A DNA stretch of 64,000 nt, taken from assembly GCA_016192435.1 (NCBI GenBank), contig JACPUD010000007.1:1-64000 (forward strand). The letters run 5' to 3'. The DNA is from Rhodocyclales bacterium (GTDB lineage: Bacteria; Pseudomonadota; Gammaproteobacteria; Burkholderiales; Rhodocyclaceae). The notes beneath the pieces were generated by a model. The model saw only the letters and a program-made list of their open reading frames with translations. It did not search any database and was not told the origin of the DNA. How positions within the stretch are numbered: position 1 is the first letter of the stretch; every line of letters starts with the position of its first letter. Both the position numbers and the translations under genes were made by a program. Of the stretch, positions 39,189 through 64,000 are shown piece after piece.

Positions 39189-39198
39189 TCGCCCCCTC

Positions 39199-39249
39199 GC
39201 GCTCGTAGCTCAATGGATAGAGTACTGGCCTCCGAAGGCAGGGGTCATG
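39199..39249 (+). pseudogene. Truncated tRNA-Arg(CCG) duplicate
   Basis: The first ~40 bases match the 5' part of the intact tRNA at 39305 (acceptor 5' strand, D arm, anticodon arm with anticodon CCG) with one difference, then the sequence diverges after CAGGGGT at the variable loop. The T arm and the acceptor 3' half are missing, so it cannot fold into a tRNA. It occupies the promoter-proximal position. Confidence 0.85.
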
Positions 39250-39304
39250 TACGAAGCGGGAGATAAAATGAGTACTGCCTTCACTTGGTTGCCGTGACCA
39301 ACAC

Positions 39305-39380
39305 GCGCTCGTAGCTCAATGGATAGAGTACTGGCCTCCGAAGCCAGGGGTTGTGGGTTCGATCCCCGCCGAGCGCGCCA
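39305..39380 (+). tRNA. tRNA-Arg (anticodon CCG)
   Basis: This is a complete 76-nt tRNA with encoded CCA. The acceptor stem GCGCTCG pairs with CGAGCGC and the discriminator is G. The anticodon stem CTGGC (39331-39335) pairs with GCCAG (39343-39347) around the loop CTCCGAA, giving anticodon CCG (39338-39340). The T loop GGTTCGATCC is standard. The integrase lies 0.9 kb downstream, so the 3' half of this gene is the probable attachment site. Confidence 0.95.
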
Positions 39381-39534
39381 ACGCCTTGTTTAGCATGGCT
39401 TTTCAGCGAGCAGCTGACAAGCAATCACCTTAAAAAACTGATTTGGCATTTTCGGCCAGGGGTCGGCTTGCGCCGAAATTTATTTGGTGGCGTCACGAGC
39501 AGCACGGGTCAGCGGTATTGGGCCAAAAAAACCC

Positions 39535-39575
39535 GTGACCAAACGGTGACCAAAGCGTGACTATGGTGTGACCAA
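39535..39575 (+). repeat. GTGACCAA direct-repeat array, 11-bp period
   Basis: Copies start at 39535, 39546, 39557 and 39568, exactly 11 bp apart. Three read GTGACCAA and the third reads GTGACTAT. A fifth copy lies on the other side of the tRNA at 39294-39301. One helical turn of spacing suggests a cooperative binding array, such as integrase arm sites or excisionase sites flanking attL. The rest of 39381-39593 holds no gene. Confidence 0.7.
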
Positions 39576-39593
39576 GCCAATTCGGCTCGAGTG

Positions 39594-39854
39594 TTACGGC
39601 AGGGAATTTTGACTACTGCTCTCCGTGACCGCTGCGTCAGGCAGATGTTCGACCAGCTGTTCAATCCGGCACCCAAAGTAGGTGCAAAGCCGATCGAGGA
39701 TATCGGCGCTCGGGTTATAGCCTCGGTGATTTGACAGCTTCGATAGCGTCATTCGATGTATGCCAGTAGCATTCGCGATCTCGAGCATCGTGACTACTCG
39801 CCCCTCCCGGAATTCCTTTTCGGCAATCAGCTCCTTGAGTCTGAAGCGAAGCAT
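39594..39854 (-). CDS. Small XRE-family transcriptional regulator
   Basis: This 86-residue HTH protein starts MLRFRLKELIAEKEF. The HTH reads TMLEIANATGIHRMTLSKLSNHRGYNPSADILDRLCTYFGCRIEQLVE, a standard Cro/CI fold with an early strand and the late PEQLxE-like segment. It is divergent from the excisionase-like gene across a spacer holding two operator-like dyads and a long inverted repeat, so it probably controls the island's integration genes. Confidence 0.82.
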   Translation of the reverse strand: MLRFRLKELIAEKEFREGRVVTMLEIANATGIHRMTLSKLSNHRGYNPSADILDRLCTYFGCRIEQLVEHLPDAAVTESSSQNSLP

Positions 39855-39877
39855 TTCATAAGCCTTCTAGCGTCACG

Positions 39878-39895
39878 TGAAGCGTAAATGTATCA
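39878..39895. promoter_or_regulatory. Operator-like dyad, copy 1
   Basis: TGAAGCGTAAATGTATCA matches TGAAGCGTATAAGCATCA at 39941-39958 at the two ends (TGAAGCGTA...ATCA). Copy 2 is 14/18 palindromic. The centres are 63 bp apart. They are plausible binding sites for the XRE regulator next to them; no binding is shown. Confidence 0.4.
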
Positions 39896-39902
39896 GAAGA
39901 TG

Positions 39903-39930
39903 TTGACAAGCATCTAATCATGGATACAAT
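39903..39930 (+). promoter_or_regulatory. Strong sigma70 promoter of excisionase-integrase
   Basis: TTGACA (39903-39908) and TACAAT (39925-39930) are 16 bp apart, both near consensus. Transcription would start near 39937, inside the left arm of the inverted repeat, and run into the excisionase-like gene at 39992. The -10 lies inside that arm. Confidence 0.7.
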
Positions 39931-39980
39931 AGGCTTTGAATGAAGCGTATAAGCATCATTCAAAGCCTATTGTATCCATG
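39919..39980. repeat. Perfect 25-bp inverted repeat
   Basis: CATGGATACAATAGGCTTTG... (39919-39943) is exactly the reverse complement of 39956-39980, separated by 12 bases (AGCGTATAAGCA) that hold the second operator-like dyad. Each arm contains TACAAT or its complement, so the promoter -10 sits in the left arm. The right arm ends 11 bases before the excisionase-like ATG at 39992. Confidence 0.9.
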
Positions 39981-39991
39981 GAGAAATTGTC

Positions 39992-40222
39992 ATGCCGCAA
40001 ACCTACCTGACCACCGATGAACTGTCGTCCCGCATCAAGTATGACACCCGCACCATCCGCGAGCGCCTGAAGGACTCCGTCCTGCTCGAAGGGGTGCATT
40101 ACTTCCGCCCCTTCGGTGGCCGGAAGATTCTCTACATCTGGGAAGCCATCGAGCGTGACATGAAATTGTCCGTCGACGCGTTGGCGATCCCGATGGCAAA
40201 CGGCCGCGTCTGCCACGGCTGA
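39992..40222 (+). CDS. Excisionase-like HTH protein
   Basis: This 76-residue protein starts MPQTYLTTDELSSRIKYDTRTIRERLKDSVL, a winged-HTH opening like excisionases or AlpA-type factors, followed by LEGVHYFRPFGGRKILYIWEAIERDM. The GGAGAAATTGTC before ATG 39992 is a good ribosome-binding site. It lies 49 bp before the integrase gene, where an excisionase is expected. The role in excision is inference. Confidence 0.75.
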   Translation: MPQTYLTTDELSSRIKYDTRTIRERLKDSVLLEGVHYFRPFGGRKILYIWEAIERDMKLSVDALAIPMANGRVCHG

Positions 40223-40271
40223 TTGATGTCCGTCCAACCAAAGATCTTTAACGTGAGAAAGGAAATCCAGT

Positions 40272-41639
40272 ATGGGTAGCATCCAGGTTCGCAAGGAAAC
40301 TGGAAACCTGATTGTCGACTTCTACTATCAGGGCCAGCGCCGACGCGAGCAAACCGCATTGCCGGACACACCGGCCAATCGCAAGAGAGTACAAAAGCTG
40401 CTCGACCGCGTTGAATCGGAGATCAGTCTCGGTAGCTTCAACTACGCCAAGTTCTTCCCCAACAGCAAACAACTGGCGAAGCACAACGACACGCCCATGG
40501 CCACCGCCATCCAGGCTGTCACCGCTGTCGTTGCCGGGGTTTCCTATCCCACTGCCAATCCGGCCCTTGATGCCACGCCGCTTCTGAAGGATTTCGTCGA
40601 AGTGTGGTTTGCCGAGAAATCGGTCGAATGGCGCAAGTCGCATCGGGCCACCATTCGGATGGATCTCGACAAGGTCATCATTCCCCGTTTCGGGGAGAAG
40701 GTGGTCGGTCGAATCACCAAGGCAGACATTCTTTCCTTCCGCGCTGATCTCGCCAAAGTCCAGGCGCGGGGAAAAGACACAATGCTTTCCAACCGGCGGA
40801 TCAACAAGCTGTTGGCTCCGTTGCGGATGATCCTGAGCGAAGCGGCCGACCGTTTTGATTTTCGCATGCCGTTCCAGAACATCAAACAGTTGAAGGTGCG
40901 CAAAGCTGATGTTCAGCCCTTCAGCCTGGACGAGGTCAGGCAGATTCTCGCCACCGTGCGCGAAGACTATCGCCAGTATTTCACAGTGCGCTTTTTCACG
41001 GGCATGCGCACGGGCGAGATCGACGGACTGCAGTGGAAATACGTCGACTTCGAACGCCGTCTGATTCTGGTGCGCGAAACTGTCGTGAATGGCGAAGAGG
41101 AGTACACCAAAACCGACGGTAGTCAGCGCGACATCCACATGAGTCAGGCGGTGTTCGATGCCCTCAAGATCCAGGAGAAAGCGACGCGGTACAAGTCCAA
41201 GTTCGTGTTCTGCAATCGTGGTGGCAAACCGTTGGCGCACAAGAATGTCACCAACCGCGTCTGGTATCCGCTGCTCCGGCATCTGGGCGTTGCTCCACGT
41301 CGGCCGTATCAGTGTCGGCACACTGCAGCCACGTTGTGGCTGGCGTCCGGTGAATCACCACAGTGGATCGCGATGCAACTGGGACACACGACGACGGAAA
41401 TGCTGTTCCGCGTCTACTCGCGTTTCGTCCCCAACCTCACGCGCCAGGACGGTTCGGCCTTCGAGCGCCTGCTGCTGCAAAGCGGCACCGTCGCCGCGCC
41501 TCCCGTGACAGCGCCTCCCGTCGCAGCGCCTCCCGTCGCAGCGCCTCCCGTCGCAGTGCCTCCCGTCGCAGTGCCCCCGACCGCGGCCTCAGTCCCTCCC
41601 GCCGCGCCGATTCCGCCCGCCGCGACCCCGACCCCGTAA
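40272..41639 (+). CDS. int: Tyrosine recombinase (island integrase)
   Basis: This 455-residue phage-type integrase has an N-terminal arm-binding segment (MGSIQVRKETGNLIVDFYYQ...), a core-binding domain (FVEVWFAEKSVEWRKSHRATIRM, about residues 110-210) and the catalytic domain. The catalytic residues are Arg246 (TGMRTGEI), Arg349 (PYQCRHT, with Tyr346 in place of the usual box II His), His372 (QLGHTTTEM) and the nucleophile Tyr382 (FRVYSRF). Lys in EYTKTDGSQR is also conserved. After residue ~405 comes a Pro/Ala/Val tail built from a 15-bp tandem repeat, unusual for the family. It recombines at tRNA-Arg(CCG), by inference from position. Confidence 0.9.
   Translation: MGSIQVRKETGNLIVDFYYQGQRRREQTALPDTPANRKRVQKLLDRVESEISLGSFNYAKFFPNSKQLAKHNDTPMATAIQAVTAVVAGVSYPTANPALDATPLLKDFVEVWFAEKSVEWRKSHRATIRMDLDKVIIPRFGEKVVGRITKADILSFRADLAKVQARGKDTMLSNRRINKLLAPLRMILSEAADRFDFRMPFQNIKQLKVRKADVQPFSLDEVRQILATVREDYRQYFTVRFFTGMRTGEIDGLQWKYVDFERRLILVRETVVNGEEEYTKTDGSQRDIHMSQAVFDALKIQEKATRYKSKFVFCNRGGKPLAHKNVTNRVWYPLLRHLGVAPRRPYQCRHTAATLWLASGESPQWIAMQLGHTTTEMLFRVYSRFVPNLTRQDGSAFERLLLQSGTVAAPPVTAPPVAAPPVAAPPVAVPPVAVPPTAASVPPAAPIPPAATPTP
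41496..41585 (+). repeat. 15-bp tandem repeat in the integrase C-terminal tail
   Basis: Six copies of GCGCCTCCCGTCGCA with small changes (first and last ones diverged) lie from 41496, each giving APPVA or VPPVA. The unit length keeps the reading frame, so copy-number changes would only lengthen or shorten the tail. Confidence 0.85.
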
Positions 41640-43479: not shown

Positions 43480-46400
43480 ATGAAAATTACCAATAGTGGC
43501 CGAGGTATTCATCAACGGGAGATCCCGGGGCTGGATAAACTTAAAGGATTACCAGACCATTGGCACGCTTTCACGAATCTAGACCTAGCGCTTCCTGGTC
43601 GAGGCATTCGAGAGATAGATCTGGTCATGGTGATCGAAGATCGTCTACTGTTAATAGACCTCAAGGACTGGCTGGGTCCCGTTACAAGCAAAGACGGGAA
43701 CTGGTTTAACGGAAACCGTGATTGCGGACGTTCACCAGTACACAAGATCGGCGAGAACGTCAGAGAACTAGCGCCCCTGCTCAAAAAGTTCCTGACAGAG
43801 CAGCTAAGAAGGGAACATGGACCAGCCCAGAAGGTCGTCGTACCATGGGTTGAAGGGGCCGTTGTCCTGACTCGCACGCCAGATCGAACAGGGATATCAG
43901 GCTCTGAGGTCGCACGCGTCTTCAGTATTGACCCGTTCATGCGAATACTAAAGAACCGCAAAGAGCGGGACGCACAACTTTCCACCCCGCGGTCGAAAAG
44001 TACCGACTTTACCGCCCCGGAATGGGTCGCACGATTCCGGCAATTCTTCAACACCTCGACCGGAATATTCCAAGCGGGCGCTAGGCGTTACGGGGGATTT
44101 AGAGCTACAAGCGAAAGCCCAACATTCTCGCACCGTAACGGGATCTTTTCTGAATTTGATGTTAATGAGGAAGGCGTCGAAATCTCTTCCGGCCTGCTTA
44201 GGCGGTGGGATTTCACAAGGGCCGAAACACGGTATCAGAGCGAGGAAGCGCGGGCATCGATCGTTGGCCGAGAGAAGACGGTTATCGCATGGTTAGACGA
44301 TAGAAATCCGAGTTGCGGGTCCGTATTATTGAAGCCGAAGGTAGATGATCCAGACCGAGGTGTCGCGTACTGGGAGGTCTTTGATAAGCGCCGACGCATG
44401 AAGCGACTTTCGGAGTTCTGTGCAACAGGTTTTCATGCAACGACAGTCGGTGAACGAATCGAATTGGCCCGGCAGATTCTCGCGGCAGCAAAGACGTTTC
44501 ACGACTTACAAGCTGCGCACCTTGATATCGGCGCGCATAGCATATGGCTGGAACCTCCTAGCACAGTAAAGTTTTCTCATTTCATGGCGGCGTCGTTCCC
44601 TGAGATTGAGACGCTGGGAAACGCTAGATTCCAGTTTTTGTCCAGTTCGACAGTGCCGGAGGATGTCCTTGGCGCAGATGGCATCCCAATACGGAAGGAC
44701 GTCTTCTTGCTTGGTTGCGTCATTCATACCTTGCTGTTAGGCGCCCCCCCGGGCGGTGATCCTCCTGAGTGGAAATCGTCCGTCGATGCTGACGGCGTCT
44801 TCTCAACGTTGCATCCGTGGTTCGAGCGTAGCTTGGAAATAGACCACGTCAGGAGGTTTGGCAACGCCGCCGAGATGCTTGACGCGTTTAATGCAGCGGT
44901 ATCGTCCGGTTCGAACGAGAAAGCTACGATCGAAGGTCTTGAAAAGTTTCGTACGCTAAAGTCGCAACGTCAAGTATTTCAAGCATACCCCGAGTCGGAA
45001 TTGCTCTTGGAAGACGACCGCGTCGTTATCTGGCGCACCAGTGATCAGAAGATTGTCAAATTATGGAAAGCAAGCGCAATCGGAGACGTCAGCAAGGAGG
45101 CCCCCAGAATTCTGGCATTTCTTGAGCGGGCGGAGGCGCTTCTTTCGTCTCCGATTCAGGGTGTCGCGACTATGCATGCCGCTCATTGGACGGGCGATGC
45201 AATTGTTCTCGTTCAAAGCTTTGTCGAAGGGCCTACGCTGTCTGATGAGATCGCCAATAGAAGGCTTTTGGCAACGCCTGAGGCGACTGTTGAATTTCTT
45301 ATTGCTCTGATCAAATCAGTCGGCATTCTGCACGAACGATCTCTTCCCCATGGAGATCTCAAGCCTTCAAACATCATCGTCGATTTCTCCGTCGGTGAAG
45401 GGCGCCCATCCCCAGTAATGATCGATGTATTAGATTTTGCGCCATCGCAAGATGGCCAGCGAATGTCTTCCGCATATAGCCCCGCTTCAGGCGGCCGATT
45501 TGAGCGCGATCGGTTTGCTGTCACCAAGATAGCGGGAGAAGTTCTTCAGGCGGTCCTTGTGAACGGGACGATTTCAGCAGACCTTGCACGTGCCATTGAA
45601 CGGTGTCGAGTAGGTCCACCGACAAATGCGACGTTGCTCCCGCTTGAAGAAGCGCTTGAGCGGGCCATTTCCCCTGTAGTCCCCGCTGAGCTTGGCGCGG
45701 CCCTTAAGGTTGTGCTTCCCAACTGTTCCCCTGGCCTCATACTTCCAGATGAGGGGGTTTACTGGATTTCGAAATTCGGATTCCAGGTCATTATTCGTGG
45801 AGCAATTGAGCAGCTTGAAATAAGGCTAGATGCATTGGGACAGCCCGTGGCCGGTAAGCGGGTAAAACCGACCCAAAATAGTATTCAACGCAGTAGGCGC
45901 CATGAAGTGGTGTCGTTTCCTGGAAGTCTTATCCTAGAACGCGGAACGAACGACCTGACCGCCGTTGCGAGCATTCTTGAGCGCGACGATATTGTTTCTG
46001 CATTGGCACGCCGGTTAGCAGCAAAGCCCGAGGTCGGAGACGACTCTGAAACAGATCCGGTGGGGACAGAGGCGCAACAAGACAATATTGCTGAAAGGGT
46101 TGCGGATGCATCTGCCGAAGCATCAACTGTAGACGTTCGTCGGTTGTGGCGGCGCATGGTAGACGTGGAGGCCGAACTCACCACAGAAGCGGCGTGTATA
46201 GGCGACAGCTCGTTCCGTAAAGATACAAAGCGACATGTCGTTCCGATTCAAATGATTGCCGGTGAGCTCGATTTCGATCGTGACGATACAGTCGTTGTGG
46301 AGCGGCAGGATGCGAAGGGACGCTGGACAAGGATTGGTCTGCTCGACTTAGTTATTTCAACGCCGGGTTTCATTGCAGTTGAGAGCTGGATGGGCTCCGA

Positions 46401-48426
46401 CCGGCAGGCTCTCGTTGCAGATGGCGACTTACTTCGATTCCAGAGCCGATACGAAAATACGAGTCGGGAACGTCGAGAAGTGGCGACGAGCAGGATTTTG
46501 CAGGGAGCCTCGGCTTCGCCGGCACTGATTGAGGCCTTTGACCCGACAGTCACGCGTAGCCCGTCTCGGCTTCCGGTTGACGCAGACGAAGCTGAGCTGG
46601 AGAAGCGATATGGCTTGAACCCTGTGCAGGTTGATTCATTCAAGACGATTCTTGAGTGTCGTCCAGTAGGGCTGCTCCAGGGTCCTCCGGGAACAGGAAA
46701 GACGCGTTTCATCGGGGCTCTGGTGCACTTCGCGCTAACTCATGGCTTGGTTCGCAACGTTCTGTTGGCCAGCCAGTCACACGAGGCAGTCAACAATGCA
46801 GGTGAGGCAGTCTTAGACCTGTTTGGCTCCGATCGGGATTCGTTAAGCTTAATTCGTGTGGGCCACGAAGGGTCGGTCTCGGAGTCGCTTAGACCGTTTC
46901 ACGTCGCGTGCGTCGAAAGGGCCTACAAAGACCGGTTCGTGGCGATGTCGAAGCCGCGCCTCAACCTGGTCGGAAAGACCCTTGGTCTCGACTCAAAGGT
47001 GATCGACGACGTTCTCCATTTTGAAGACGCTGTGGTTCCGGTGTTGGCCAGAATTGGCGAATTCGTCGAGACCAACTCACTAGATTCGGCTAGATTGAAT
47101 TCGCTCAAAGTTACCGTCGAGCAGCAACTTGCTTCGCGGGGTATCAATATGGATCTGTCTAATTTGGAAGCGAGTTCGGTTGACGATCAGGTTACAGCAC
47201 GGTTCATGTCTGACTTGCCTAGCAATCAGGCGGCAAATATTGAAAAGTTTCGCCAGGTTGTCCAACTGAGCAGAGACATTATCGGTAGTGTTTCGACCTG
47301 GCAGAGAAGCTTCGAAACGTTCCTGGCAGGAACGCGCCAAGTTGTTGCAGGTACCTGCGTGGGGCTTGGAAGGACATCGCTCGGTCTTACTAAAACGGTA
47401 TTTGACCTCGTGATCGTTGATGAGGCTGCGCGCTGCACATCGAGCGAGTTGGCTGTTCCAATACAAGCTGGAAAGTGGATCGTACTTGTAGGGGATCATG
47501 CTCAATTGGAACCCTTACATCGCCCGGAGGTTGTCGAGTCCGTAGCGGATGAACTGCGCATGCCGTTACACGAGGTGATGCGAAGTGATTTCGAGAGAGT
47601 TTTTCAATCGACTTACGGTCAGGCGGCTGGCTCGACCTTAACAAAGCAATACCGGATGCTGCCTCCCATTGGGCGCCTCGTGTCAACGGCGTTTTACGAT
47701 CGTGCTCTTGCACACGGTCGCACTGATCCGTACATCGACGTTGATGCGATGCCCATAGAGCTCACGAAATGTCTTACCTGGGTTAGCACTGATTTGCTTG
47801 GGTCAGAGGCATATCAGAAGCCGGACAAAGTACGCCGCGGTAGCTTGACCAATCCGGTCGAAGCCGAAGCGATTGTCACCATGCTGAAAAGCTGGTCGAC
47901 GAACGACGCTTTCCTGGCATGGCTGACTTCTTTGTCACCACAGACGAAAGCGAAAGCGATTGGCGTTATCTGCGCATACGCGGCACAGCGAGACCTCGTT
48001 TGGAAGAAGCTGCAGGCAGAGAATCTGCCGGACGCAATACGGAGATCGCTGAAGGTGGACACGATTGACAGCTACCAGGGAAAAGAAAATGTTTTGGTGC
48101 TCCTGTCTCTCGTTAGAAATAATTCAGATGGTAAACCGGATGCGGGAGTGGCAACGATTGCCCCGGGATTTATGGGACGGAAGAATCGAATCAATGTAGC
48201 GCTGAGTAGAGCCATGGACCGTCTAGTGATCATCGGTGCACGCGCGGGATGGCGTCGAGGAACGCCGCTTGGTCGGGTCGTCAATGGTTTTAACGAAGAG
48301 ATTAAGTGCGACGAAGCGATCGTAGTCGACGTGCAGCGGATATTCGAAGTACCCGCGACTACCACCAGAGGTAAGAAGAAGGGGGCTCAAAGTGCACAAG
48401 GATCGCGATTGGGGGCCGCGCCATGA
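43480..48426 (+). CDS. NERD nuclease / tandem kinase-like / SF1 helicase fusion protein
   Basis: This 1648-residue protein has four parts. Residues ~1-120 are NERD-like, with Asp47 (EIDLVMV) and Asp60-Leu-Lys62 (LLIDLKDW) in a PD-(D/E)xK arrangement. Residues ~270-480 look like a degenerate protein kinase: HLDIGAHSIWL (347-357) keeps Asp349 but lacks the Lys and Asn. Residues ~505-715 are a second kinase-like domain with HGDLKPSN (624-631); the DFG position reads LDF (651-653). Residues ~1040-1620 are an Upf1-type SF1 helicase: GPPGTGKT (1068-1075), VIVDEAA (DE at 1314-1315), DSYQGKE (1530-1536), NVALSR (1572-1577). The partner gene overlaps by 4 bp. The DNA is AT-richer than both flanks. A defensive role is inferred from the neighbours; PglW also combines NERD and kinase domains but has no helicase. 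Confidence 0.85.
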   Translation: MKITNSGRGIHQREIPGLDKLKGLPDHWHAFTNLDLALPGRGIREIDLVMVIEDRLLLIDLKDWLGPVTSKDGNWFNGNRDCGRSPVHKIGENVRELAPLLKKFLTEQLRREHGPAQKVVVPWVEGAVVLTRTPDRTGISGSEVARVFSIDPFMRILKNRKERDAQLSTPRSKSTDFTAPEWVARFRQFFNTSTGIFQAGARRYGGFRATSESPTFSHRNGIFSEFDVNEEGVEISSGLLRRWDFTRAETRYQSEEARASIVGREKTVIAWLDDRNPSCGSVLLKPKVDDPDRGVAYWEVFDKRRRMKRLSEFCATGFHATTVGERIELARQILAAAKTFHDLQAAHLDIGAHSIWLEPPSTVKFSHFMAASFPEIETLGNARFQFLSSSTVPEDVLGADGIPIRKDVFLLGCVIHTLLLGAPPGGDPPEWKSSVDADGVFSTLHPWFERSLEIDHVRRFGNAAEMLDAFNAAVSSGSNEKATIEGLEKFRTLKSQRQVFQAYPESELLLEDDRVVIWRTSDQKIVKLWKASAIGDVSKEAPRILAFLERAEALLSSPIQGVATMHAAHWTGDAIVLVQSFVEGPTLSDEIANRRLLATPEATVEFLIALIKSVGILHERSLPHGDLKPSNIIVDFSVGEGRPSPVMIDVLDFAPSQDGQRMSSAYSPASGGRFERDRFAVTKIAGEVLQAVLVNGTISADLARAIERCRVGPPTNATLLPLEEALERAISPVVPAELGAALKVVLPNCSPGLILPDEGVYWISKFGFQVIIRGAIEQLEIRLDALGQPVAGKRVKPTQNSIQRSRRHEVVSFPGSLILERGTNDLTAVASILERDDIVSALARRLAAKPEVGDDSETDPVGTEAQQDNIAERVADASAEASTVDVRRLWRRMVDVEAELTTEAACIGDSSFRKDTKRHVVPIQMIAGELDFDRDDTVVVERQDAKGRWTRIGLLDLVISTPGFIAVESWMGSDRQALVADGDLLRFQSRYENTSRERREVATSRILQGASASPALIEAFDPTVTRSPSRLPVDADEAELEKRYGLNPVQVDSFKTILECRPVGLLQGPPGTGKTRFIGALVHFALTHGLVRNVLLASQSHEAVNNAGEAVLDLFGSDRDSLSLIRVGHEGSVSESLRPFHVACVERAYKDRFVAMSKPRLNLVGKTLGLDSKVIDDVLHFEDAVVPVLARIGEFVETNSLDSARLNSLKVTVEQQLASRGINMDLSNLEASSVDDQVTARFMSDLPSNQAANIEKFRQVVQLSRDIIGSVSTWQRSFETFLAGTRQVVAGTCVGLGRTSLGLTKTVFDLVIVDEAARCTSSELAVPIQAGKWIVLVGDHAQLEPLHRPEVVESVADELRMPLHEVMRSDFERVFQSTYGQAAGSTLTKQYRMLPPIGRLVSTAFYDRALAHGRTDPYIDVDAMPIELTKCLTWVSTDLLGSEAYQKPDKVRRGSLTNPVEAEAIVTMLKSWSTNDAFLAWLTSLSPQTKAKAIGVICAYAAQRDLVWKKLQAENLPDAIRRSLKVDTIDSYQGKENVLVLLSLVRNNSDGKPDAGVATIAPGFMGRKNRINVALSRAMDRLVIIGARAGWRRGTPLGRVVNGFNEEIKCDEAIVVDVQRIFEVPATTTRGKKKGAQSAQGSRLGAAP

Positions 48427-49898
48427 GCCAAGAAAAGCGCGCCACCTTATCGCTGCCCAAGAAGCCAAATGCCGATACAGTTGAAGAAGATAGGAATATT
48501 CCAGTTGGGCTATTCGACGTTCTCCTGCCAAGCCGGCAATTTGTCGTCCATCATAAGGTGGCGGAGGTTGGGCAAGTTGCATTAACGACGGAGTTCTTGT
48601 TGCGACTTCTGTATTCCGTCGACGGAATGGAAGAGGAGGACATCGCGCAATTCTTTGGGTTCAATACGGGTGAAATGGCTTTCGTTGTTAATGAGGCTGA
48701 ATCTCGGGGCTACTTAGATCGAATAGGCGGACGCATTTGGCTAGCCGATGCTGGGCACGCACTTTTCATGGATGGACAGCGGCCCCAAATTTTGGAAGTC
48801 CAGCGACGCACTGAGAAGATCGGCTTCGATCTTCTTTCTATGGCGCCATGCGAACGAGTAAACCTTTCCGAGTTCGAATTAGCGCTACCGGAGCTCGAAA
48901 TCCGGGATGAGCAGCGGGTGGCAACGGCATCTCATGATGTGCCGGACGCTTTCCGGCGACACTACCGTGAAATCGTCGGGCGCAAGGACAGGGATCCGGC
49001 TACAGGAGTGAAGAGATCCCTTTACTCAGTCGACGACGTTGCTGCGTCTGATCGATTCTCTGCCGTAGTTCCTGTTCTCGCGATTGCAAGCATCAGGAAA
49101 CCAGGGGAACCGGAACCAATGCTTGATGCTTGGCGGCCGGGACACGAGATCGATGACCGAGGCGCGGTCGTAAATTCCGTTGCCGCATTTCTCGATGGCT
49201 TAAAGACTGTTAAACGTACGGAGGACGATCACGCCTACGAGGTACTTCTAGATATCGCGCCAGACTACCTAAAAGAGTACAAAACGAAAAGTGGGCTTAG
49301 CGCCCTTCGATTCTTTAAGGAAACTGCGGTTCGTGCTGGTGAATTGCGAGTCGACCGCCCGACTGTGGGCATCATTGGTCCCTTATACTCCCCCGAGAAC
49401 AGCAGGCGAATATCCGATGCACTAGCCTATGCTGGCCCCGGGGAACCAGAGGCAGATGACGACAACTTCGTGTGGATTGCACCCGACGTTGCGGGTTGGG
49501 GGGCGTCGAGAGCCACGAGCACGCTGTTAGACCGGATTCATGGAAGCGAGGCGGTTATTACGCGAGGTAAGCCGCTGAAACATCTGCTCAAGCTATTCCA
49601 AAAGGTGCTTCAGCGTCCCGATAACGGCTCCATTCCCGCGGCACTGGAGATGCTCCTTATCCCAAGGCGCGTCGTCGCGGTCACAGTCCATGCGCCGCTC
49701 GGCATTGGAAGAAGCTTCCCAATTCCCTTGGGGGTGCTGAGCTTTGAACCGGATGTCGTGAAACGAGTGCACCAGTATCTAAAGACCCAGTTGCCTCAAT
49801 ACATCGAGATTGCAAATTCGAACGACAGATTTGATCTTCATTCGATTTTGCGTTGGGTTGAGTCTCCAGGGGAAGGTAGCTCGGTTGGCAGTTCGTAG
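48423..49898 (+). CDS. Partner of the NERD-kinase-helicase protein, winged-helix-like
   Basis: This 491-residue protein starts 4 bp inside the preceding gene, so the two are translated together. Residues ~50-115 look like a winged helix (TTEFLLRLLYSVDGMEEEDIAQFF; EAESRGYLDRIGGRIWLADAG). The rest is not recognised. Stretches such as VGIIGPLYSPENSRRISDALAYAG and NFVWIAPDVAGWGASRATSTLLDRI suggest an alpha/beta domain. Low GC like its partner. It may be a DNA-binding or effector subunit of the module; no catalytic motif is seen. Confidence 0.75.
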   Translation: MSQEKRATLSLPKKPNADTVEEDRNIPVGLFDVLLPSRQFVVHHKVAEVGQVALTTEFLLRLLYSVDGMEEEDIAQFFGFNTGEMAFVVNEAESRGYLDRIGGRIWLADAGHALFMDGQRPQILEVQRRTEKIGFDLLSMAPCERVNLSEFELALPELEIRDEQRVATASHDVPDAFRRHYREIVGRKDRDPATGVKRSLYSVDDVAASDRFSAVVPVLAIASIRKPGEPEPMLDAWRPGHEIDDRGAVVNSVAAFLDGLKTVKRTEDDHAYEVLLDIAPDYLKEYKTKSGLSALRFFKETAVRAGELRVDRPTVGIIGPLYSPENSRRISDALAYAGPGEPEADDDNFVWIAPDVAGWGASRATSTLLDRIHGSEAVITRGKPLKHLLKLFQKVLQRPDNGSIPAALEMLLIPRRVVAVTVHAPLGIGRSFPIPLGVLSFEPDVVKRVHQYLKTQLPQYIEIANSNDRFDLHSILRWVESPGEGSSVGSS

Positions 49899-50176: not shown

Positions 50177-52015
50177 TCAGGAAACGTCAATTGGCATTGT
50201 CTTCCAGACGTCCTGCGCCAAAGCGATGAGCATTGTGTGCCGCTTTTCGATGGTTGCCGCATTCCACGCGGGGAATGCCTCCAGCTTTGCGTTGATCCGC
50301 GAGATGGACGTGTTTTGCCCCACGTCGGTTAGCTCCACCAGGCTGCGCGTCAGGTAGTTGCCGCTCTTGCGATACTCGGCCTGTTTGTCGGTATAGAAAT
50401 CGTTCCCTGCGACGATGTTGATTGGCTTTTCCAGCAAGGTCAGGTTACCGAGCCGATTCTTGTAGTCGTCGTAGGCAAGCCCCGGGTTCTCGCTCGCCCA
50501 CTTTGCACGCAGCTCACTCTCTGGCTTGTTGGGCAGGATGTGTTCAATTTCCAAATTGGTGAATGGCTCCAGGCTGCCAGGCACCTTCAGCCCATTGAAG
50601 GCCATCTCGACGTGCTGCGTCAACCGGGCCAGCAGGTATCGCGTCCGGTACTGCTGCATCGAATACAAGGTGAAGCGCTTGAGGGCATCGGTCAACTCCT
50701 GAGACTTGCCCGCCATGTTCTTCTCGAAGCGGTCGGCGACAAAGGCGTTGAGCTGAGCCTTTTGCTGCACCGGATCGCTACCCTCGGCAATCGCGCGCAG
50801 CTCGTCGGCCCATTGGGAGAAACTACGTTCCAGGTCTTTGGTCGGGGTCTTGGTGAAGATGTAGTAGAAAAGGAAACTCTCCAACTGCGCCACGAAATGG
50901 TCGAACAGCGGTTTCGGGAAATTGGCCGCTGCCAGCAACAGGACGTAGTGCAGACTGAAGGCTCCCCCGGCCAGTCGCTTGAGGCTGTCCATCGCAAGGC
51001 TGGGCTTTCCATCGTTGCCCATCCCGTTGGCGAATGCCAAGTAGTGCTCAACGTTGCGAATCACCTTGCGCACGAACTCGAAGGGCTTGTTGGTGTAGTC
51101 GCACAACGCGGCGTTGTCCTTGGCCACGAACCAGTCGTAGATCTCGTCCTCGCGGAGCACCGCATCGCCGCGCTCATTCTGGATGACGTAGTTGGCCATT
51201 AGGAAGTAGCGCAGGAACCGGAGCGGCTTTTCCTTTTCCTTCTCCAGCGGCTTGGTGATCTTCTTCCACTCGTCCTTGAGTTGGGTGAATTGCGTTTGCT
51301 TGACCTGTGTGAACAGCAGATTCTTGAGCAAGTCCATCGGGTTGAGGCCGACACCGCGCTCGTTGATGGTCTCGAAAATCTTCAGGGCACTGCTGACATC
51401 CGTGGAGATCTGGATGAAGACGACGTTATTGGCCAGATAGCCCCAATACTTCTTCAGCTTGGCGATATCGTCGTAGTTGTCCTTCAGATACCGGTAAAGC
51501 GTTGCATAGGCATTGATCAGATTCTCCAGCGACCCAAAGCTCGGAATGCCGGCCGCCTGGATGCCCGCGCGCACGACTTGTGGATCGGCGCCCAACTCGA
51601 CCAGTTTGGCCATCACGTCACCGGCGTTTTCGTAGCGCGGTTCCAGCTTGAGGGTGGTCTGTGTCTCTCCCTCGCTATCCGTATAGCTCGAGGAGATCAG
51701 ACCACTGATGGTTTGACGCTGAGGCTCACCCTGAAACAGGTTTTTCAGTGCGCACAAGAGCAGGAAGAACGTCGTCAGACGTTGCTGGCCATCGATGACT
51801 TCGTAATGGCCTTTCTGGTCTGTTGGTGAAACCAGGATCGTGCCGATGAAGTATTCCCGCGTCGTCCCGGCATCGATCTGCTCGCCGACGTCTTCGAGTA
51901 GCTGATGCACTTCCTTATCCGTCCAGACATATTCGCGCTGATAGTCGGGGACGATGTAGAAGCACTCCCTGAATGCCTCCTCGATGCTGTATTTGTGGTT
52001 TTCAATGCGGGCCAT
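50177..52015 (-). CDS. DUF262/DUF1524 protein (GmrSD-type nuclease)
   Basis: This 612-residue protein joins the two halves of GmrSD-like type IV restriction enzymes. The N-terminal DUF262 (ParB/Srx-like NTPase) has IVPDYQR (21-27) and VIDGQQRLTT (DGQQR 75-79). A helical middle follows. The C-terminal DUF1524 is an HNH-type nuclease with EIEHILP (near residue 490) and RLGNLTLLEKPINIVAGN. Such proteins cut DNA with modified bases, and BrxU in another BREX island is related. It is the last gene of the minus-strand BREX cluster, 30 bp after pglZ, so it is probably cotranscribed. The modification targeted cannot be read from sequence. Confidence 0.85.
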   Translation of the reverse strand: MARIENHKYSIEEAFRECFYIVPDYQREYVWTDKEVHQLLEDVGEQIDAGTTREYFIGTILVSPTDQKGHYEVIDGQQRLTTFFLLLCALKNLFQGEPQRQTISGLISSSYTDSEGETQTTLKLEPRYENAGDVMAKLVELGADPQVVRAGIQAAGIPSFGSLENLINAYATLYRYLKDNYDDIAKLKKYWGYLANNVVFIQISTDVSSALKIFETINERGVGLNPMDLLKNLLFTQVKQTQFTQLKDEWKKITKPLEKEKEKPLRFLRYFLMANYVIQNERGDAVLREDEIYDWFVAKDNAALCDYTNKPFEFVRKVIRNVEHYLAFANGMGNDGKPSLAMDSLKRLAGGAFSLHYVLLLAAANFPKPLFDHFVAQLESFLFYYIFTKTPTKDLERSFSQWADELRAIAEGSDPVQQKAQLNAFVADRFEKNMAGKSQELTDALKRFTLYSMQQYRTRYLLARLTQHVEMAFNGLKVPGSLEPFTNLEIEHILPNKPESELRAKWASENPGLAYDDYKNRLGNLTLLEKPINIVAGNDFYTDKQAEYRKSGNYLTRSLVELTDVGQNTSISRINAKLEAFPAWNAATIEKRHTMLIALAQDVWKTMPIDVS

Positions 52016-60900: not shown

Positions 60901-61673
60901 TGTGGGTTTTTGCGCAGCCAACGGGGGGCGAGTCGCTCGAAGGCGCCAAGCAGGAAGTGGCCTGAGCCACAGGTCGGGTCGATCAGGTCAACGTCTTCCA
61001 GCGTGAAAATATCGAGGGCTGGCGTGAGGGTGCGATTCAGAATGAAGGACTCGACAAACTCGGGAGTTTGCAGCAACGCATAGCGTTCCCGTGCCGCCTC
61101 GGACAGGTCCTGGTACAGGTCGCCGAGGAAGCGGGTGTTCCATTCTGGGTCGGCGAAGTCATGCACCAGCGCACCGCTGTCAGCATCGGCGGCGCGGAAG
61201 AAGCGCACCAGCTGCTTGCCCATGTCCGCCGAGACGGGCGCCGACAACAGGCTTTGCTGCACCTTCAGCACATCCGATAAACCCGGCAGTCGGCTGGCCA
61301 CCGCAAATACATCGCGCAAGTAGTCGTTGTCGGAGGCGGTCGGATGCTGCAGGTAGAAGGCTTCCTGCCGTGCGACGGCGGAGCGGCCCTGACTATCGGT
61401 ACCGGAAATCAGGGGCGCATCGAGCAAATCGTTGTCTTCGCAGAAACGGATGAATACGCATGCCAGCACCCAGGCGACGGCGGATTGGGTGAATTGGGCC
61501 TCAACCCAGGACTCCAGGGCTTCGGCGGTACGGCCAGCATCGCGGGCGGCCTGCCAGCCTGTGGTGAGTCGCTGCTTGTATTCCTGGATTGAGTCGAAGC
61601 GCTCGCGCAAATCACCTTCCAGGTCACGTACCTGGAGTTTGAGATCGGCGAGCAGTTTGGTGCGGTTGATCAT
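57948..61673 (-). CDS. pglX: BREX-2 adenine-specific DNA methyltransferase PglX
   Basis: This 1241-residue enzyme methylates host DNA at N6-adenine so that the system can tell self from phage. The SAM-binding motif DPTCGSGHFLLGAFERL is near residue 230 and the catalytic NPPY motif (VVGNPPYIAVKD) near 375. The C terminus ends in a Pro/Arg-rich tail. The stretch 58,860-60,500 (residues ~390-940, the target-recognition region after NPPY) is visibly AT-richer than both ends of the gene, as if that part had been exchanged. PglX starts 4 bp inside pglW. Confidence 0.95.
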   Translation of the reverse strand: MINRTKLLADLKLQVRDLEGDLRERFDSIQEYKQRLTTGWQAARDAGRTAEALESWVEAQFTQSAVAWVLACVFIRFCEDNDLLDAPLISGTDSQGRSAVARQEAFYLQHPTASDNDYLRDVFAVASRLPGLSDVLKVQQSLLSAPVSADMGKQLVRFFRAADADSGALVHDFADPEWNTRFLGDLYQDLSEAARERYALLQTPEFVESFILNRTLTPALDIFTLEDVDLIDPTCGSGHFLLGAFERLAPRWLRKNPHNVNVALQEALNRIAGVDLNPYAVVIARFRLLIAALKMAQVHKLRLAPDFHLHIETGDSLLHGFDQRDYTRAQAALALNNPQENLGAGADHRYRHAFAAEDLEATNAILSRKYAAVVGNPPYIAVKDRAVSALYRERFSSCHGKYALVAPFCERFWALAKPLDRSVRAGFVGLIVGNAFMKRTFGKKLVQAFFPTVHLTHVIDTAGAYIPGHGTPTAILLGQSRPPANDVVRVVMGIKGEPATPADPANGIVWRAIIEQIDVCGSESKWISVADAQRATFAKHPWSIGGGGVSELRDAIEAEWPTLKSVADEIGIFGMTNADEVMLASKDAFLRQRVEGDLIRELVVGDAVRDWSHQHGQYCAFPYRDGVLCHIENAPGLLRWFWPFRTVLGNRATFSKDTYFGEGRPWWEWHQIGLRRLATPSTITLAFVATHNHFILDRGGKVFNRSAPIVKLKLTASDDEHFGILGLLNSSTACFWFKQVLHNKGSTVDQQGARQRTDAFEDFYEFTGAALEKFPVPHDRPVAITGTLISTIQSMQSLLPANVNDLSSLSREKINERRRNAELLFGTAIALQEELDWLVYYIYGLIDQPLCFTGTVPPIQLGERAFEIALAQDVANGSESTTWFDRHGSTPTDVVASHWPAEYQDLVLRRIQAIRRSRDVALMERPEYKRRWTRDPWESQEQEALKAWILDRLEAEDLWPRDAHPAPKLRSVRELVDHLSGDEAFRRVLDLYAGTGSDAHATVVTLVQQACVPYLDAVRYSDSGLRKRTVWQNTWTMQRREDAIDAEVARRMVGEPVEAIEAEQARRKAAEVGAIPVPPKYKQEDFRDGVFWKLRGALDVAKERFVSFPGLERGQDAGSPMLLWAGYDAKARALALTGYLYEMLQREGAEAIRLTPALAGLDEMLPWVHQWHPEIDDDLGMSTGDYLQGLLDAQLAQHGLTLANVRTWRPPAPARRPRGRRTGTPTNTSTNARPDSEDSRE

Positions 61674-64000
61674 TTCTTCTTGGCCTTGGTGTCGGTCGTG
61701 GTCGGCGAACTACCGGACGACGCATGCGCGTTTTCCAGCCAGGCGCGCGGGATGCGACCGTAATCAGTGGTATTGATGGTGACGGGAACGGCTTGCCCGT
61801 CCAGAATTGGCCGGTCGTCGGGCGTCATCGGGCTAGCGATGAGCGCTACCAGGGGCGGACGCTCGCGATACATGCAGGCGTTCGCCAGCTTGGCGAACAG
61901 GGTCATGTGCTGCCAGCGCGCGGCGAGTCCCAGATTGACCAGCACGCCAGGTTGATCGTCGTGCAGCAGCTGGGCTTCCACTTTCGGCCAAACCTCGCCA
62001 AGCACCGTGGCAAAGTTCTGCGCATCGACGGAACCAGCTGGCGCGGCATCTGCAGTGAGTAGGACATTCCAGTCCACTTCCCACTCCTGCGCCTGCTTCT
62101 CTAGCTGGGTCAGTACGATCTCGTCAAAGTCGACAACCTTGAGGCCGAAGCGCCGTGCCAATTCGCGCTGTGCCACCGCGAGCCCCTTGGGATCGACCGA
62201 CAAGGTCAGCAACTTGCCGCTGGCCAGTGCATGTCGGATGCGCTCGTCAATTTGAATCGCGGCCTGCACGTCAGGCGCAGTCGGTGGGCGCTGACGGTCA
62301 TTGGTGGAGAATCTTGTGATCTGCGTGGTACCCGATATAACGCCCGCCGAGAATTGCATGACGAAGGCGCGCTTTGCGCCGTCCCATTTGACGTCCAGCC
62401 CGGCATCCTTGAGTAGCGCTTCCAGTTCGGCTGGGCCGGGCAAAGGCGCGGCTTCCGGGTAGCGGGCAAAGATTCGACGACGGATGGTTTCCAAGTCGAA
62501 CTGCCGCAGGCCCAGCAGAGACGTGGTGGCCAGCTTGACTGCGCGTGCAGCAGGCAATTGCCTCGGGTAGAACTCCAGGCGTGATGACAGCGCGGCCTGC
62601 TGGGCACATGCGGCGGCCAGACGAATCAGTCTTTCCGAAGGCAAGGCGGTATCGCCAGCCGGTGGTGGAATGCGCGACAGGACGTCGGCTACTTGCTGGG
62701 CCGATGGCAACGGGTCTTGCCGGGCGAGGCGATCGGCAGCCTCACCCAGTACAACCGCGTAGCTGGCGCGAACCTCGGGTGCGGACGGGAAAAGCCCCGA
62801 GGCACCACTGCTCGCCAGGATCGAAACCACCAGATCGTCCGGTTGCGCGGGGCTCACCAGGGGGCGGGCGGCGGAGTCTCGTTGAACCAGTTGCCAGCGG
62901 GACGACTGCTTGGTGCGCTCGACGGTAATGGCGGCCCGGGTGACAGCAAGGGCTTCATGATGCCGGGCGTCGCCTGTCTGCACGCTCCCCCGCCGTGCCA
63001 GCAATGCCGCTGCCACCTCGCTGACGGTGGCGATCCCGCCGAGCCCGGCGAGGATCAACGCCACGTCATCACGCAGATGGGTGATTTCCGGCTGGCGAGA
63101 CATTCGTTCCGACATGGACTGGAGCAGATCGTCCGGCAGCATGCTGGAGTCGGTACCGGTTTTCAAGCCGAGCCAGTTTTCCAGGACCTGGAGTTGCGCC
63201 TCGTCGCCCTTTTTGGGCACCAGCATGGCGGCGGCCGCATCCACGGAAAGCTTTGCGACGGTGGTGTCGGCCACCTGCTCCTCTGCAGCTGGCTCACCGC
63301 TGAATTGCTGGCGCAGGCGATCAGCAATCTGGTGCAGTTCACGAGCAACGGCTAGTGCAATGCCACGGTGACGATACAAACGGTTGCGTGGCAACTCGGC
63401 GAGATCGCCTGCTGTGGCCAATTCATCGTGGCCAATGCGCTCGATCAGTTCGAGATGGCGCGAGTCGAGTTCCAGGGACGCCAGCGGCGTGCTCGGTGTG
63501 ATGCCGCTTGCTGTAACCGCAGGTTCTTCGCCAAACGCCAACTGAGCCTGGGCGGTGGGCGCGGGGTGGGACGTAACCGGGCGGGAAACGTTTTCGAATA
63601 CCTTGCGCCAGGCATGCAGCATCTGCTCTGCGTTGTCGAAACGCTGACGCTGGTCGCGTGACAACGCGCGGCTGAAGAAATCGAGGGCTTGTTTACGGAT
63701 CGAGGCATCGAAGCGCTCGGAGTCCAGGATGATTTCGGATTTCAATGTGGCCGGGTCGGCGCTTCCGTCACCCCATTGGGGCAGGGTGCCGGTGGCCATC
63801 TCGTGCAGTGTCAATGCGCACGAGTAGCGCTCGGCGTAGCCGTCCCACATGCCACGTTTGCGCAGGAAGGGATCCATGTACACCCGCGTCCCCGCGTTGA
63901 GATCGGTCGCCGGTATGCCCGCCAGGGAGAAGTCAAACAAGGTCAGCGTCAATCGTTTGCCCGCCCCCGGCCGAATGCCGATGTTGTCTGGCTTGATGTC
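61670..64000 (-). CDS. pglW: BREX-2 serine/threonine kinase PglW, partial
   Basis: The visible 776 residues are the C-terminal part; the N terminus (normally with a NERD domain) is beyond the right edge. The first codons give DIKPDN, the catalytic loop of a Ser/Thr kinase, then FDFS (DFG position), GTRVYMDPFLRKRGMWDGYAERYSCALTLHEM (activation segment to helix F). A long C-terminal region of helical repeats follows (LELDSRHLELIERIGHDELATAGDLAELPRNRLYR is helix-hairpin-helix-like), ending in KAKKK. It is the first gene of the cluster, and in Streptomyces PglW is the kinase that partners PglX. Frame is open to 64000. Confidence 0.9.
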   Translation of the reverse strand, partial: DIKPDNIGIRPGAGKRLTLTLFDFSLAGIPATDLNAGTRVYMDPFLRKRGMWDGYAERYSCALTLHEMATGTLPQWGDGSADPATLKSEIILDSERFDASIRKQALDFFSRALSRDQRQRFDNAEQMLHAWRKVFENVSRPVTSHPAPTAQAQLAFGEEPAVTASGITPSTPLASLELDSRHLELIERIGHDELATAGDLAELPRNRLYRHRGIALAVARELHQIADRLRQQFSGEPAAEEQVADTTVAKLSVDAAAAMLVPKKGDEAQLQVLENWLGLKTGTDSSMLPDDLLQSMSERMSRQPEITHLRDDVALILAGLGGIATVSEVAAALLARRGSVQTGDARHHEALAVTRAAITVERTKQSSRWQLVQRDSAARPLVSPAQPDDLVVSILASSGASGLFPSAPEVRASYAVVLGEAADRLARQDPLPSAQQVADVLSRIPPPAGDTALPSERLIRLAAACAQQAALSSRLEFYPRQLPAARAVKLATTSLLGLRQFDLETIRRRIFARYPEAAPLPGPAELEALLKDAGLDVKWDGAKRAFVMQFSAGVISGTTQITRFSTNDRQRPPTAPDVQAAIQIDERIRHALASGKLLTLSVDPKGLAVAQRELARRFGLKVVDFDEIVLTQLEKQAQEWEVDWNVLLTADAAPAGSVDAQNFATVLGEVWPKVEAQLLHDDQPGVLVNLGLAARWQHMTLFAKLANACMYRERPPLVALIASPMTPDDRPILDGQAVPVTINTTDYGRIPRAWLENAHASSGSSPTTTDTKAKKK

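Follow-up and report, generated by a model that had tools for sequence, protein, structure and literature searches.

In the immunity and early control regions of temperate phages, a repressor acts between divergent promoters, as exemplified by C/Cox of phage P2, CI/Apl of 186 and CI/Cro of lambda; Cox is an excisionase as well as a regulator. In IS10 and IS50, protection from outside transcription is accomplished by arms partitioned across the start site. The locus described here resembles IS10 and IS50 in that, by predicted folds, the arms of a palindrome are split across a start site and the right arm ends at the Shine-Dalgarno (SD) sequence; it differs in that the palindrome does not lie at a transposon end and in that no family-wide SD occlusion was found. 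A third point of reference is mutational: quasi-palindrome template switching, as set out in two papers (PMC7202029; PMC8794818), turns imperfect dyads into perfect or longer inverted repeats. The present palindrome is like these mutations in this respect, and unlike those cases in that the event is here inferred from comparison alone and that its product mirrors the -10 element of a promoter.

The palindrome lies in a window of 64,000 nt (the whole stretch of DNA that was analysed), which corresponds to positions 1-64000 of contig C5 in a 3.52-Mb, 148-contig draft genome that is 83% complete. Like temperate-phage control regions (for Apl of 186, PMC7498355), and as in a phage-type switch, the locus combines a small HTH regulator gene in divergent orientation, a pair of operator-like dyads that flank a promoter, an excisionase-like gene placed first in the operon, and a regulator region that is exchanged among relatives (Table 1). 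Unlike in those regions, the operon is xis-int of a chromosomal element with defence genes, and a spacing of 62-64 (or 52-53) bp is preferred between the two operators. A literature search found nothing on this regulator/two-operator cassette, nor, passages of PMC8450116 included, anything on the IS10/IS50 guard. Comparison of relatives suggests that the function of the palindrome is probably explained by its centre, and its extension by a mutational mechanism.

Table 1. Features of the control region and of the integrative element that carries it (window positions unless prefixed C5).
Feature	Position	Strand	Remarks
attL	39334-39380	+	3' part of tRNA-Arg(CCG)
86-residue Cro/C1-type HTH regulator	39594-39854	-	PF13443, E 5.4e-11
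O1, sister dyad TGAAGCGTAAATGTATCA	39878-39895		63 bp upstream of O2
xis-int promoter TTGACA-16-TACAAT	39903-39930	+	11/12 consensus bases (promoter scan)
Left arm of perfect 25-bp inverted repeat	39919-39943	+	holds -10 box
O2, operator-like 18-bp dyad TGAAGCGTATAAGCATCA	39941-39958		palindrome centre; relatives symmetric at same place
Right arm of 25-bp inverted repeat	39956-39980	+	in 5' leader of xis-like gene
76-residue xis-like protein	39992-40222	+	low-confidence winged-helix-like model
Tyrosine integrase	40272-41639	+	Arm-DNA-bind_2 PF12167 + Phage_integrase PF00589
MkoA (Mokosh)	43480-48426	+	element cargo
MkoB (Mokosh)	48423-49898	+	element cargo
HEC-06/Orf5-like protein	50177-52015	-	element cargo
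PglZ, BrxC/PglY, PglX	within 43480-63952	-	BREX/Pgl-type cargo
PglW-like, C-terminal part	61670-63952	-	near window end
attR	C5:93320-93366		47-nt copy of attL; outside window, unrelated sequence before it

The host of this control region is an integrative element, recognised by its integrase gene and by att sites in direct repeat at a tRNA gene. The tRNA-Arg(CCG) gene (39305-39380) precedes the integrase gene, and because the 47 nt of attL recur as attR, the element spans about 54.0 kb. A shortened duplicate of the 5' portion of tRNA-Arg lies at 39198-39245, 106 nt before the intact gene, and is followed by a GTGACCAA site; this copy, absent from the sister element L215, is perhaps a remnant of another integration. 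Direct repeats similar to GTGACCAA recur every 11 bp at 39534-39575, with a further copy at 39292, are conserved in L215, and are possibly arm-type sites of the integrase.

Searched by sequence against solved structures, the regulator returned XRE-family proteins. The xis-like protein (77% mean column identity over 36 aligned relatives drawn from the 80 nearest loci) had no match among the families of Pfam, NCBIfam, PHROG and PADLOC, and its profile gave no convincing match in the same kind of search against solved structures. Its low-confidence model (pLDDT 59.7) found no Foldseek match at E 0.001; the top matches were 4lhf, a phage P2 DNA-binding protein which we take to be Cox (E 0.49), and 8dgl, RdfS (E 1.2).

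The anatomy of the palindrome largely bears out the initial annotation, which had described a perfect 25-bp inverted repeat over a consensus promoter with its -10 box in the left arm, a second dyad upstream, and a transcript that would begin in the hairpin. The two arms pair fully around a 12-nt loop, and 39919-39980 taken as one object is a 62-nt palindrome, 94% complementary and with arms that meet without a gap, whose right arm extends up to an SD-like GGAG (39980-39983). The promoter boxes (TTGACA, 39903-39908; TACAAT, 39925-39930) are separated by a 16-bp spacer, the -10 falling inside the left arm, and the predicted start lies within the hairpin at about 39937-39939. The upstream dyad, O1, is identical to O2 at 15 of 18 positions. 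O2 itself had been placed in the loop; the dyad exists, and it takes in the whole loop together with the innermost 3 bp of either arm, sharing its centre (39949.5) with the palindrome.

A promoter scan of 39400-40300, with a lower threshold of 9/12 at which shuffles give 0.9 sites in that interval, returned the xis-int promoter as the sole sigma-70-like site and reported no minus-strand promoter. The regulator's own promoter has no clear consensus; read by eye on the opposite strand, the -35 hexamer is TTGTCA and may serve the regulator as its -35. An intrinsic terminator was considered and rejected, there being no T run where the right arm gives way to GAGAAATTGTC; a terminator scan of the same interval, which is limited to loops of 3-8 nt and so is blind to a palindrome with a 12-nt loop, gave a sole match at 39463-39476.

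The common layout in relatives runs from a Cro/C1-type regulator through O1, the promoter, O2 and the xis-like gene to the integrase. The xis-like gene occurs in 20 of the 399 genomes of the order, its own genome counted; in the species collection, at least 517 of the 590 candidate stretches contain it, and 80 loci were retained from the matches listed. At class level the regulator occurs in 27 of 369 genomes, at family level in 32 of 199 and, by profile search, in 60 of 395, weak matches counted; a match to it is present in 102 of the first 112 loci (three of the 112 are the window itself), and the best among the matches listed are 84-85% identical. Within the first 160 nt of their control regions, two loci from genomes of the family do not differ from loci of named species, L043 from L147 (Rhodocyclus gracilis) and L040 from L149 (Zoogloea ramigera), so the bacterium that carries the window probably belongs to the family of these two genera. 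In the viral_contigs collection, the single regulator sequence returned 13 stretches, none of them a relative, a 12-row regulator profile two loci, and xis six. All regulator relatives in the plasmid and phage collections were below 60% identity (5 and 4 records, respectively, at E 1e-5).

The placement of the two dyads is a shared feature of this layout. From 134 distinct upstream regions, 76 with a regulator match of at least 70 bits and a dyad pair were retained, giving 61 dereplicated loci. A dyad pair scoring at least 24 is present in 24 of these, against 1.65 per shuffled set, and absent at that score from 37. Sixteen of the 24 pairs are spaced by 62-64 bp (0.15 expected) and three by 52-53 bp (0.05 expected), and at score 22 the shorter spacing accounts for 11 of 42 (0.35 expected); at 10.5 bp per turn, 63 bp makes six helical turns and 52.5 bp five. 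Operator sequences vary between relatives despite this clustered spacing. Arm symmetry peaks with its centre 19.5 bp after the -10 box (z 5.0; 90 of 106 loci, those with a good promoter), with lesser peaks at 18.0 bp (z 4.8), 9.5 bp (4.0) and 12.5 bp (3.5).

A further line of evidence comes from exchange. The element of L215, from the same genus and at the same tRNA, is 88% identical to the window element over 2.1 kb, with xis at 96% and integrase at 90% identity; over about 39630-39991, its regulator (57%), operators and leader belong to another version. Among 99 dereplicated loci with an adjacent divergent regulator (137 before dereplication), 67 pairs have integrases at least 80% identical. 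Regulators fall below 65% identity in 33 of these pairs (30 below 35% or without a match) and reach at least 80% in 24, and 8 of 16 integrase clusters include a regulator swap. As judged from these alignments, regulator and operators swap as a unit among elements with similar integrases, like phage immunity regions, and this exchange is our best evidence that the regulator and the dyads work together.

It is thus by comparison, through operator spacing, the centre 19.5 bp past the -10 and cassette exchange, that the proposal of a regulator-operated xis-int switch, made when the sequence was first annotated, gains credibility. A dimer of the 86-residue regulator would bind O1 and O2, which flank the -35 box of the xis-int promoter at a distance of 63 bp, or six helical turns. 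Occupied O2 would cover the transcription start and turn xis-int off, and occupied O1 would probably cover the regulator's own start. Regulator and operators would travel between elements as one cassette, in the manner of an immunity region.

The length of the palindrome is a separate matter, and it is far beyond chance. With the base composition of the window and bases treated as independent, about 2e-8 perfect inverted repeats of at least 25 bp with loops of up to 60 nt are expected in 64 kb; in about 930 kb of compared DNA (overlaps included) this repeat is the longest, the runners-up measuring 18-19 bp. A DNA search of its own assembly found neither a second copy nor another arrangement (the genome being 83% complete). 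Among the 109 loci of the first set other than the window, a single one, L029, has perfect arms of at least 18 bp at the same place; there, 1734-1775 is a separate 18-bp perfect inverted repeat with a loop of 6 at the O2 position and a different operator sequence. Palindromes of 15-19 bp with loops of 0-3 nt, of the AAGCAAAAGGCGCAGACC type, recur at L036:1704-1741 and similarly elsewhere, in the same loci as the control regions and away from the O2 site. In viral_contigs, the arm pattern retrieved three stretches (two apparently one sequence) in which the layout is absent by eye and which have no match to the regulator, xis or integrase.

Where the palindrome came from can be approached by asking how much of its symmetry is shared. 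Twenty of the 61 loci were registered at 62-64 bp spacing using the inner 18 bp only (L117, at least, is probably mis-registered, and L027 dropped out). At offsets 10-20 of O2, 131 of 220 pairs are complementary, against 88.4 (sd 7.5) when right flanks were re-dealt, none of 5000 re-deals being as high; with the window left out, the count is 120 of 209 against 82.1. The flanks of O1 show no extra symmetry at these offsets (67 of 220 against 65.6). At offsets 21-31 of O2, all 11 of 11 positions pair in the window, whereas its relatives show no symmetry (61 of 209 against 70.1). On these comparisons, symmetry past the 18 bp of O2 is a family trait, and a quasi-palindrome score of at least 8 is found in 51 of 106 leaders against 5.75% of shuffles. 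Because the symmetry at offsets 10-20 is shared and that at 21-31 is confined to the window, a widened O2 appears ordinary for the family and the outermost 11 bp appear to be the window's own; these 11 bp, the mirror of the -10, have no counterpart in 19 comparable relatives.

The closest relatives among the matches listed, L075 (TTCAAAGCCC) and L022 (CAAAGCCTAT), share the inner arm in their O2 right flank; beyond it they have AACATCA or similar right before the SD, a place that in the window is taken by its own -10 region in inverted form. When inverted copies of the -10 region were sought anywhere in the leader, gaps allowed, the mean score was 6.28, compared with 5.37 in swapped loci (n=87 with the window counted; p 2.9e-6), and the score reaches at least 10 in 6 of the 87 loci (window included) against 0.6% of swapped loci; direct and complement-only controls stayed at background level. 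In these alignments, mirrored -10 pieces recur across leaders, though without fixed register, so the cause may be recurrent rather than a one-off accident. By energy, the promoter side likewise pairs with the leader more strongly than in swapped loci and alike on both strands, which places the signal at the DNA level; a stretch further upstream that served as a control tended the same way (p 0.053).

These patterns lead us to favour, with some confidence, an account in which an over-extended operator, whose core would serve regulator binding and repression, and a template-switch event together explain the palindrome. The wider quasi-palindrome around O2 across the family would be a ready substrate for replication template switching, which in the window lineage most likely placed an inverted copy of the promoter's -10 side in the 5' leader, and so would have made the arms perfect over 25 bp. 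The nearest comparisons show no before and after of the outer arm, the whole region being swapped in L215 (88%).

An unlikely alternative is that the operator itself is enlarged, with a second regulator dimer or the xis-like protein occupying the outer arms for cooperative repression or autoregulation. It draws on the confinement of the extra symmetry to O2 across diverse sequences, on the perfect arms of 9-11 bp that flank a 12-nt loop in L061, L101 and L104, and on the phage P2 protein as top, non-significant, fold match of the xis-like model. However, the outer arms match the inner half-sites no better than chance (p 0.04-0.39, control 0.12), leaving them unsupported as extra regulator half-sites, and the lack of counterparts to the outermost 11 bp in relatives tells against this alternative as well.

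Decidedly unlikely is a guard against read-through, in which RNA entering from the upstream tRNA-Arg gene would fold the 25-bp stem flush with the SD and leave xis untranslated, while RNA from the element's own promoter, devoid of the outer left arm, would stay more open. Because the predicted start lies inside the hairpin, the outer left arm is untranscribed from the xis-int promoter and its pairing cannot serve that mRNA. In predicted folds, own-start mRNA forms a 6-bp inner stem, a further two inner pairs and, around the start codon, a weak helix; the long RNA from outside forms the full stem (-55.6 kcal/mol), and the unpaired fraction of the SD drops from 0.58 to 0.21. Within 1200 nt upstream, 54 of the 102 loci whose sequence reaches that far contain a tRNA gene, which in 49 of the 54 is co-oriented. 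Against these points stand the family data: SD accessibility in long RNA is 0.362 with a locus's own upstream sequence and 0.353 with foreign sequence (n=88), pairing is no stronger behind a co-oriented tRNA (43 against 45 loci, p 0.21), and the pairing signal is equal on both strands. With neither SD occlusion nor an effect of tRNA orientation across relatives, the guard finds no support as a family trait; for the window element alone, the modelled folds make it possible.

A stem-loop at the mRNA 5' end, whose inner stem would stabilise the xis-int message or tune its translation, is highly improbable as the explanation. Stems near the predicted start are seen by eye in the structures of many relatives, and G.U pairs outnumber A.C in stems when thresholds are loose (75 against 43 at score 6, p 0.010; 63 against 34 at score 7, p 0.013), an excess that is not significant at scores 8-10. 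Judged by energy, leaders also fold better on the plus strand (p 0.008), a difference that z does not confirm (0.14). The G.U excess and the plus-strand energy together make some RNA-level selection possible; the minus strand nevertheless folds nearly as well, and such a stem-loop accounts for the transcribed inner part only. Support for an RNA-only reason for the stems is mixed.

Inversion of the promoter by recombination between the arms, also raised in the initial annotation and suggested solely by inverted repeats beside an integrase gene, is essentially excluded because only the 12-nt loop would flip, with both promoter boxes outside it, the -10 unchanged after exchange and transcription unaltered, and the single arrangement in the assembly and the rarity of long perfect arms at this place argue against it too.

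The broadest reading of the data is one that we regard as very doubtful: a widespread, undescribed cassette of a Cro/C1-type regulator with operators at five or six turns would be exchanged as an immunity unit, repeated template switching around O2 would mirror its -10 element into the leader, and some elements, that of the window to the greatest degree, would use the product as a DNA or RNA guard against transcription from the tRNA genes ahead of them.

Returning to the favoured account of an operator extended by template switching, the palindrome is better regarded as an extreme case than as a device of a new kind. Its relatives offer a natural operator series in which the growth of a palindrome by template switching may be followed at a regulatory site. 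More generally, the locus provides a testable account of how defence-carrying elements would stay silent and possibly avoid doubling up through heteroimmunity.
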